This document shows positions 1-33,498 of a stretch of 33,498 nt of DNA, piece after piece. The stretch is from a candidate division WOR-3 bacterium (GTDB taxonomy: Bacteria > Hydrothermota > Tepidihabitantia > SM23-42 > JAOAFX01): NCBI GenBank assembly GCA_039802205.1, contig JBDRWD010000023.1, forward strand, positions 1 to 33,498. Reading direction: 5' to 3'. Numbering within the stretch: the stretch's first letter is position 1; each line of letters begins with the position of its first letter. The position numbers and the translations under genes were made by a program. Under the pieces are notes generated by a model that was not told where the DNA came from, did no database searches, and was given only the letters and a program-made list of their open reading frames with translations.

Positions 1-756
1 ATGAAGTTTATTTTGACGAATACGGGTAGTGCTACGTTGAGCAATTTGTATGCGGCGGTTTTCATGGATTGGGATATTGGTAGTTATGGGAGCAATTATG
101 GGAATTCGGATGCGGCGCGGAAGTTGACTTATATGTATTATACGAGTTCTTATCCGTATGTGGGGGTTGAGATTTTGGATCCGCCGCGGACGGTGCCGGC
201 GCGTAATTTAGCGATAATTGACAATCAGACTTATGTTTATCCTTATTATGGTTTGCCGGATAATATACAGATTCAGTTTATGGATGGGACGATACAGAAT
301 CCTTCTGGGGCGACGGCAAATGATTGGTCGACTTGTAATTCGGTTGGTCCGTTTACTTTAGCTCCGGGTCAGACTCAGACAGTGGCGTTTGCGGTTCTGG
401 GTGGGACGAATTTAGCGGATTTGCAGGCGAATGCAGATACCGCATATAATCGGTATTGGAGCTGGACAGGGATTAAGGAGCAAGAAGGACAGGCAGTTAA
501 AGCACGGTTTGGTATTTATCCAGTGGTTACGGGTGGTGGTTTGAAGTTAGTCTACAGTGATTATACTGGTGATGTTGGCGTTGTAGTTTATGATGTGATG
601 GGTCGTAAGGTTTCAGAGCGAGTTTGGAAGAATGTCAATGGTGAAGGGATATTAAGTATGGATCTTTCTCATCTCGCCAACGGGATATACTTTGTGGGTG
701 TCAAAACCAACGGTTTTGCTCAATCGATGATTCAGAAAGTGATCCTCACCAAATAA
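1..756 (+). CDS. Secreted surface protein, 3' part, with T9SS-type sorting domain
   Basis: The reading frame is open from the first base, so the gene almost certainly starts upstream and only the last 251 codons are seen. The first 150 or so residues look like a beta-rich extracellular domain (many Tyr, Asn, Gly, Thr; no membrane segment). The last 70 or so residues resemble the type A C-terminal sorting domain of type IX secretion: a 'VYDVMGRKV' strand, then 'LSHLANGIYFVGV' and a final 'KVILTK'. In known systems this domain directs export through the outer membrane and is then removed. The protein's own activity cannot be read from this fragment. Codon use in the first 140 or so codons is strongly biased to third-position G or T and relaxes towards the 3' end. 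A terminator follows 20 bases after the stop. The sorting-domain call is fairly secure; the secretion machinery is not in this window. Confidence 0.75.
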   Translation: MKFILTNTGSATLSNLYAAVFMDWDIGSYGSNYGNSDAARKLTYMYYTSSYPYVGVEILDPPRTVPARNLAIIDNQTYVYPYYGLPDNIQIQFMDGTIQNPSGATANDWSTCNSVGPFTLAPGQTQTVAFAVLGGTNLADLQANADTAYNRYWSWTGIKEQEGQAVKARFGIYPVVTGGGLKLVYSDYTGDVGVVVYDVMGRKVSERVWKNVNGEGILSMDLSHLANGIYFVGVKTNGFAQSMIQKVILTK

Positions 757-775
757 CCAATAGCCGCGAGCATCT

Positions 776-816
776 ACCGGGTCAGGAAGGAAAAACCTTC
801 CCGACCCGGTTTTTTT
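776..816 (+). terminator. Rho-independent terminator of the surface protein gene
   Basis: A 15-base arm (776-790) pairs with 796-810, with one A:C mismatch and a five-A loop (791-795). The second arm runs directly into a T tract (810-816). This is a textbook intrinsic terminator, and it separates the upstream gene from the chaperone operon whose promoter starts two bases later. Confidence 0.93.
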
Positions 817-33117: not shown

Positions 33118-33498
33118 CTATTCAAGAATCTGGGTGACAACCCCGGCACCCACCGTCCGACCACCCTCACGAATCGCAAACCGCAAACCCTGCTCAATCG
33201 CCACCGGCGCAATCAACTCCACCTCTAAATTCGCATTATCACCAGGCATCACCATCTCCACACCCTCCGGCAACTTCACCACACCCGTCACATCCGTCGT
33301 CCTCATATAAAACTGCGGCCGATACCCATTGAAAAACGGCGTATGCCGACCACCCTCCTCCTTCTTCAACACATAAACCTCAGCCTTAAACCGCCGATGC
33401 GGATTGATCGTCCCAGGCTTCGCCACCACCATCCCACGATAAACCTCATCCTTACCTACACCCCGCAACAATATCCCAATATTATCCCCAGCCTCCGC
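33118..33498 (-). CDS. tuf: Elongation factor Tu, 3' part
   Basis: Only the last 126 codons are in the window; the frame is open to the edge. The sequence covers the end of domain II and all of domain III: '[25 protein letters not shown]', '[24 protein letters not shown]' and the final '[18 protein letters not shown]'. EF-Tu delivers aminoacyl-tRNA to the ribosome. Codon use is extreme: nearly every codon ends in G or T, unlike all the other genes on this strand, and it relaxes only in the last ten codons. Identity is certain; the rest of the gene and the operon promoter lie outside the window. Confidence 0.98.

Follow-up and report, generated by a model that had tools for sequence, protein, structure and literature searches.

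For bacteria, Lassalle et al. 2015 (PMC4450053) proposed a gene conversion biased to GC (gBGC), which resembles what we describe here in being a non-adaptive, recombination-linked base bias that mimics selection at silent sites. In the present case, however, pyrimidine sites favour C to T, a change away from GC, and the bias goes with the coding strand; the words strand, transcription and keto were not found in the portions of the main text of that study that were covered (PMC4450053). Duplicate tuf genes are known to evolve in concert, from work on Salmonella (PMC5485169) and from a survey of prokaryotes (PMC6053082), and the likeness to our case lies in two copies held alike by conversion. 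No base or strand bias was found in the parts of those two papers covered, whereas most scored members of the order studied here have a tuf rewritten to 72-93% G/T endings. In Salmonella, MutS is said to detect most mismatched tuf heteroduplexes, which are probably destroyed (PMC5485169, in part); that something similar might lie behind the present bias would be a step taken by analogy.

Two other systems touch on transcription. Vertebrate genomes show transcription-associated mutational asymmetry, with strand-specific base changes in transcribed DNA, according to the part of PMC2927911 covered; here, in contrast, adjacent genes are skipped, and in one resolved case the bias starts at a paralogy border. 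Trypanosome VSG switching involves RAD51-mediated R-loops, i.e. RNA-DNA hybrids in gene-family recombination (PMC10691351, in part), which sets a precedent for such hybrids in recombination, but a eukaryotic one. Among the titles and abstract openings covered, no work was found on coding-strand G/T bias in converted genes.

A G/T tract in a secreted peptidase gene

The window, i.e. the whole stretch of 33,498 nucleotides that was analysed, is the entire contig C23 of a 2.65-Mb genome in 95 contigs (G000). GT3 denotes the share of codons with G or T at the third position. The features that matter here are:

1..756, + strand: 3' part of a gene predicted to encode a secreted S8 (subtilase) peptidase, an ORF with 251 codons visible
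1..432, + strand: G/T tract, codons 1-144, GT3 0.92, from the maximum-scoring segment and the change point
433..756, + strand: rest of that gene, GT3 about 0.64, dropping to 0.42 over the last 12 codons
514..744, + strand: T9SS type A sorting domain, amino acids 172-248 (TIGR04183, E 4.8e-8; PF18962, E 4.5e-7)
777..816, + strand: terminator-like hairpin and then a T run, 3' of the stop codon, found by eye
33118..33498, - strand: 3' part of tuf (EF-Tu), truncated at the far end of the contig, GT3 0.93
33148..33498, - strand: G/T tract within tuf, GT3 0.96
33118..33147, - strand: final 10 tuf codons including the stop, GT3 0.60, where A/C-ending codons are back

Position 1 of the contig cuts the peptidase gene and the catalytic part lies beyond the window; the first ATG is therefore not necessarily the start of the gene. 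A relative in genome G002, a subtilase some 960 aa long, has Peptidase_S8 in its N-terminal half and the same T9SS tail; its C-terminus is 72% identical to the visible product. The sorting domain scores 32.9 bits with TIGR04183, over a curated cut-off of 23. The gene's five closest named relatives all come from MAGs of candidate division WOR-3 / Candidatus Stahlbacteria, and G000 itself is a WOR-3/Stahlbacteria MAG.

A preliminary description of this DNA had noticed that the first 140 or so visible codons end mostly in G or T, and that the style switches near base 430. Both observations hold: 131 of 143 codons before base 430 have G/T endings against 70 of 108 after it (Fisher P 1.7e-7), and the change point that fits best, which follows codon 144 (base 432), was matched by 0 of 2000 permutations. 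The sliding-window analysis that it had called for, applied to the visible part of the gene, gives the same change of composition, with GT3 in 20-codon bins of 0.85-1.00 to codon 140, 0.65-0.75 over codons 141-220, and then 0.55 and 0.42. The switch had also been placed near the border of the sorting region; it is real, but it falls about 28 codons ahead of the domain. GT3 of the whole visible gene is 0.80, 5.5 SD over the mean (0.54) of sampled ORFs and rank 2 of the 615 ORFs with 100 aa or more (a 29% sample of G000), rank 1 being the tuf fragment. The remaining 28 window genes, tuf excepted, span 0.45-0.63 (murE 0.56), and over the first 100 bases past the stop of the peptidase gene G+T is 0.50.

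The likeness to the codon style of tuf was seen correctly (GT3 of the fragment 0.93), as was the fading of the bias near the gene end in tuf too (0.60 in its last 10 codons). The two genes do lie on opposite strands, the peptidase gene on + and tuf on -. Replication strand as the cause, discounted from the outset, is ruled out: tuf shares its strand with those window genes that are lower in G/T. A general trait of sorting-domain proteins is ruled out as well: the proposed comparison with other sorting-domain genes of the genome gave GT3 of only 0.46-0.66 for tail-bearing frames, as far as these were fetched (30 of 144 matches). The 144 matches are the type IX sorting-domain matches in the 2.65 Mb of G000, the last three listed being below the cut-off.

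The peptidase gene has a single match in its own assembly, and the contig ends inside the tract; on our reading a second copy would have been lost from the assembly. The counterpart contig in G001 (33,262 bases as against 33,498) also starts in the same gene and stops in tuf. Tract position varies among the homologues. In G002 the gene is intact within a contig, and it is the catalytic half that bears a tract while the part homologous to ours has none; in G025 the tract lies in the C-terminal half. The G000 and G001 copies carry it at least in the C-terminal half, their catalytic halves being outside the visible sequence.

Tract-bearing genes and the tuf copies

A maximum-segment scan of nine genomes, in a sample partly picked for known matches whose tract rate is thus not a genome-wide one, found 36 G/T tracts (29 with a score of at least 16) in 1645 ORFs with 80 aa or more. 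Mirror (A/C) tracts in the same ORFs number four; one is the tuf end of G005, one was read as tuf backwards, and the other two score about 14. The excess of tracts over mirrors means that the bias follows the coding strand. Within the part sampled, the bias is confined to a few gene classes: tuf; transposases (DDE_Tnp_1, Mutator and IS481-like); secreted peptidases of the S8, M14 and C25 families; and some genes of unknown family. No tracts were found in 384 kb of G000 picked irrespective of tracts (L177-L196), and in 400 kb of G005 tuf was the only tract gene. A 60-codon G/T pattern, allowing up to 3 mismatches, was found in 20 of 27 genomes among the matches listed, simple repeats included (e.g. 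G003 C32); such counts are of overlapping matches, not tracts. A reversed-pattern control is uninformative for NNK repeats, and the mirror tracts served as control. Two proteins of unknown function with tracts were seen in G000 (L116:13725-14315 on C2, and L107:1825-2217 at the end of C48), one weakly like DUF6055 and one without a Pfam family.

Across the order, tuf GT3 is 0.72-0.93 in 12 of the 13 members scored; the thirteenth, G018, has 0.68, or 0.79 without its N. The genes beside tuf have ordinary values: those read as rpsJ, rplC and rplD, abutting tuf in G001, G005 and G006, have GT3 0.40-0.52 where tuf has 0.83-0.89, and the ribosomal genes adjoining tuf in the window have 0.45-0.50. 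Class members outside the order have tuf GT3 of 0.49-0.70. Copy numbers there come from the matches listed and are indicative only: family f4 (tuf 0.60-0.66, five scored) has two copies visible in at least G028, G030 and G036, families f3, f5 and f7 (0.49-0.54) have one copy among the matches listed, and family f6 (0.61-0.64, with neighbours equally high) and G040 (0.70) blur the relation of copy number to GT3.

Two tuf copies are visible in several genomes, and in G000 the tail of the second is on contig C8. Tail pairs are identical over the last 123-183 bases compared in G003, G004, G008 and G012, and differ at 3 sites in G000, 4 in G001, 2 in G017 and 11 in G018; no tuf tail was recognised in G007, G013 and G015 in this comparison. 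The single-contig assemblies G011:C1, G016:C1 and G018:C1 have N gaps inside or beside tuf, and are thus scaffolds rather than closed genomes.

Profiles of seven tuf genes of the order, from the start codon, are mostly G/T from the first codons on, less so in G001. In most of them the G/T endings stop 10-25 codons ahead of the stop codon and A/C endings return, in several species to a G/T share under background. Over the last 10 codons that share is 0 to 0.30 in G004, G005, G008, G012 and G026 (L295, L045, L059, L303 and L046); two copies agree in these A/C-ending tails in G004, G008 and G012, and one copy was seen in G005 and G026. In G003 and G017 the 45-57 tail codons seen show weak bias. 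That tuf ends are merely unconverted parts is not supported, since the copies agree there too. The A/C tuf tail, along with the ribosomal genes of G005, which fall below the mean, suggests that translational preference in the order may be for A/C endings, opposite to the tract.

Base-level bias and near-identical paralogs

Codons were pooled from the 34 tracts with scores of at least 14, namely three of tuf, nine labelled transposase and 22 others, the last making up 4908 codons. When silent families are counted and pooled by group, A drops relative to G, and C relative to T, in the tracts. Thus in the 22 tracts AAA/(AAA+AAG) goes from 0.62 to 0.08, GAC/(GAC+GAT) from 0.29 to 0.06, and C/(C+T) is down in 16 of the 16 codon families compared, the reverse of GC-biased conversion. 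The change of ATA to ATG is non-silent, and the ATA share of Ile hardly moves in these tracts (0.26 to 0.24; it is 0.19 in the transposases and 0.07 in tuf), while at a silent first position CTG/(CTG+TTG) falls from 0.48 to 0.12. Non-silent sites were compared in 677 columns aligned across homologs, with Leu and Arg left out; G/T in tract rows is higher by 6.5% at position 1 (CI 4.1-9.0) and by 3.3% at position 2 (CI 1.1-5.6). The S8 and C25 families agree in this, but M14 goes the opposite way at position 1 (-6.6%, CI -12.1 to -0.9) and is flat at position 2. With ATA kept, CTG giving way to TTG and amino acids shifting as A-to-G changes would have them (one family excepted), the bias acts on bases of the coding strand, not on codons. 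Extra context effects are also seen: TTA and GGA resist (0.50 to 0.32 and 0.63 to 0.35), and in NCN boxes the drift is to G, not T. These speak against a pure transition bias, which predicts neither.

In three relatives the tracts coincide with near-identical paralogous DNA whose flanks have diverged. (i) In G004, the C25-type peptidase genes of C16 and C3 encode proteins that share 50% identity across 787 aligned residues, and in DNA the two are 97.8% identical from codon 655 onward. In 10-codon bins, identical codons jump from 0-2 to 9-10 at codon 660, where G/T endings go from 4-8 to 8-10 in both genes; the tract stops 8 codons ahead of the stop codon. Searching G004 with this tract at the DNA level turned up two more contig ends (98% and 99%) as well as a short match at 81%; its end is seen again on C9, at 98.8%. 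(ii) In G008, an S8 peptidase (C87) and its cut paralogs (C12, C93) share 97-98% of their DNA over the tract, with GT3 0.78-0.82; a further paralog on C91 (frame L271:7795), 72% identical to the C12 copy, has GT3 0.59 in the tract part. (iii) In the M14 pair of G001, identity is 0.94-0.98 and GT3 0.77-0.83 over codons 120-210, both being high over codons 90-210, and the values are 0.67-0.70 and 0.53-0.63 over codons 240-330. This pair has misfits, at codons 30-60 (identity 0.99, GT3 0.73) and 480-497 (0.98, 0.63). The contig of one member ends about where the second tract of the other begins.

The transposons present a mixed picture. The DDE_Tnp_1 insertion sequence of G000 (L111:14018-15181) has 39 matching places, at least 26 of which reach its 3' end, and its transposase carries a tract at codons 142-352 of 388; the first 120 or so codons are unbiased despite their repeat status. 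In diverged copies of the transposon the bias is lower in some parts and nearly equal in others. The same element marks many of the contig ends of the genome.

Repeats as a sufficient cause are ruled out by near-identical pairs that lack the bias. The tandem genes on L279 of G004 are 92.8% identical over 1172 bp with GT3 0.52; G004 L283 (95.2%, GT3 0.51) and G005 L210 (93.3%, GT3 0.41) are also unbiased, though both lie in reading frames shorter than 100 aa, which may not be real genes, and G008 L273 (97.1%, GT3 0.64) shows little bias. The tandem pair consists of L279:4910, a metallophosphoesterase by Pfam, and L279:7986. Among the pairs listed, the unbiased near-identical ones (at least four) are all local, within one 20-kb stretch, and the biased ones are dispersed.

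Origin of the tracts

We favour, at a probability of roughly 0.55, the reading that the G/T tract is a product of concerted evolution, through ectopic gene conversion biased to G/T on the coding strand. Multi-copy coding DNA of the order (the two tuf genes, transposons and secreted peptidase paralogs) would be repeatedly overwritten by ectopic conversion, and conversion, or the DNA work that accompanies it, would, on the coding strand, prefer G to A and T to C. A converting segment would over time shed nearly all its silent A and C, and unconverted neighbouring parts of the gene would retain ordinary usage, whence the sharp switches inside genes. An earlier remark that the switch hints at domain shuffling comes close to this. 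Conversion as the cause of the bias is what we infer; as to why the bias should follow the coding strand, we can offer a speculation. Perhaps the invading strand is sense, either non-template DNA or transcript. A G or a T/U on it could still wobble-pair (G.T/G.U) with a mismatched template, while A or C would give A.C mismatches and might be rejected. A strand-specific heteroduplex that tolerates G.T wobbles and not A.C mismatches would fit with the dispersal of the repeats, the polarity along the coding strand and the strong loss of A as well as C. A full sense-strand conversion ratchet, in which transcripts or non-template strands pair with the template of the other copy, each round favours G and T, and multi-copy genes are slowly rewritten at silent sites in two letters (G/T), is a good deal more doubtful.

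Several observations weigh against conversion: the near-identical pairs without bias; the window gene, which has no second copy in the assembly and whose intact G002 relative has no tract in that part; the tuf copies, which agree through their last 10-25 codons yet are A/C-rich there in many species; the weakly biased tuf tails of G003 and G017; the unbiased start of the transposase and the bias that persists in parts of its diverged copies; the misfit codons and opposite shift of M14; the fall of ATA in tuf; and the behaviour of TTA, GGA and the NCN boxes.

The main alternative to conversion, possible though we would not bet on it, is deamination of an exposed strand, in which R-loops in strongly transcribed genes lay open the non-template strand to C-to-T and A-to-G changes and repeats only spread the result. 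Transcription-associated asymmetry leaves G and T in excess on the coding strand, and here the bases and the strand are right, both changes running from amino to keto on the coding strand, with 36 tracts to 4 mirrors and with non-silent shifts that agree in two of three families. However, the genes directly downstream of tuf, assumed to be co-transcribed, are untouched; G+T is 0.56 in the 100 bases past the stop of the G001 gene, so that the bias does not extend over the whole unit; and one tract has its start at a paralogy border within a gene. Chemical deamination attacks A far more slowly than C, yet both are strongly depleted. Nor would transposases be expected among the most transcribed genes.

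A G/T-rich cassette, foreign or mobile, shuffled among genes and keeping the codon style of its donor, seems improbable. It would produce the sharp internal borders, the near-identical segments in otherwise diverged genes and the presence of the style in transposases, but tuf is no cassette and has the style in 13 of 13 order members scored, the tract sits in different halves of the window-gene homologues of G002 (catalytic) and G025 (C-terminal), and the retention of ATA and the non-silent shifts speak for changes made in situ. Translational selection acting where expression is very high, a reading that the preliminary description had raised, fares worse and we think it quite unlikely. True, no gene in the window shows the bias more strongly than tuf, in which ATA is rare too, but the ribosomal genes beside tuf (0.45-0.50) lack the bias, transposases share it, and the tuf end itself reverts to A/C endings. 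Outside tuf, moreover, ATA is not avoided, CTG yields to TTG, and first-position and non-silent bases shift too. Conserved and variable columns barely differ (0.90 and 0.86), which leaves translational accuracy a weak candidate also.

It is very unlikely that the changes are written by reverse-transcribed mRNA (retro-conversion or a diversity-generating retroelement). Coding-strand orientation would be explained, and G004, with the strongest tract, has one reverse transcriptase match, but in these incomplete assemblies PF00078 matches occur in only 3 of 41 genomes (G004, G015 and G022), and none was found in G000, G001, G002, G005 and G008. An assembly artefact at contig ends is hardly credible: 11 of the 36 tracts do reach a frame end cut by the sequence end, but others lie inside contigs in open frames (G000 C4, G001 C1 and C3, G004 C16, G005 C1) and the pattern recurs in 20 of the 27 genomes searched, some simple repeats among the matches.

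If biased conversion is the right reading, silent-site composition would show which genes convert and on which strand, in an uncultured lineage and from one genome. Extreme codon bias in tuf, often a yardstick for high expression, could then be a recombination scar. Biased conversion would also offer a reason for the breaks of several metagenome contigs of the order in tuf and in secreted peptidases, and it would make the strand polarity of bacterial gene conversion testable. The sense-strand ratchet, if true, would be a base-composition signature that reveals the strand used in ectopic recombination; we know of no other that reads it out.
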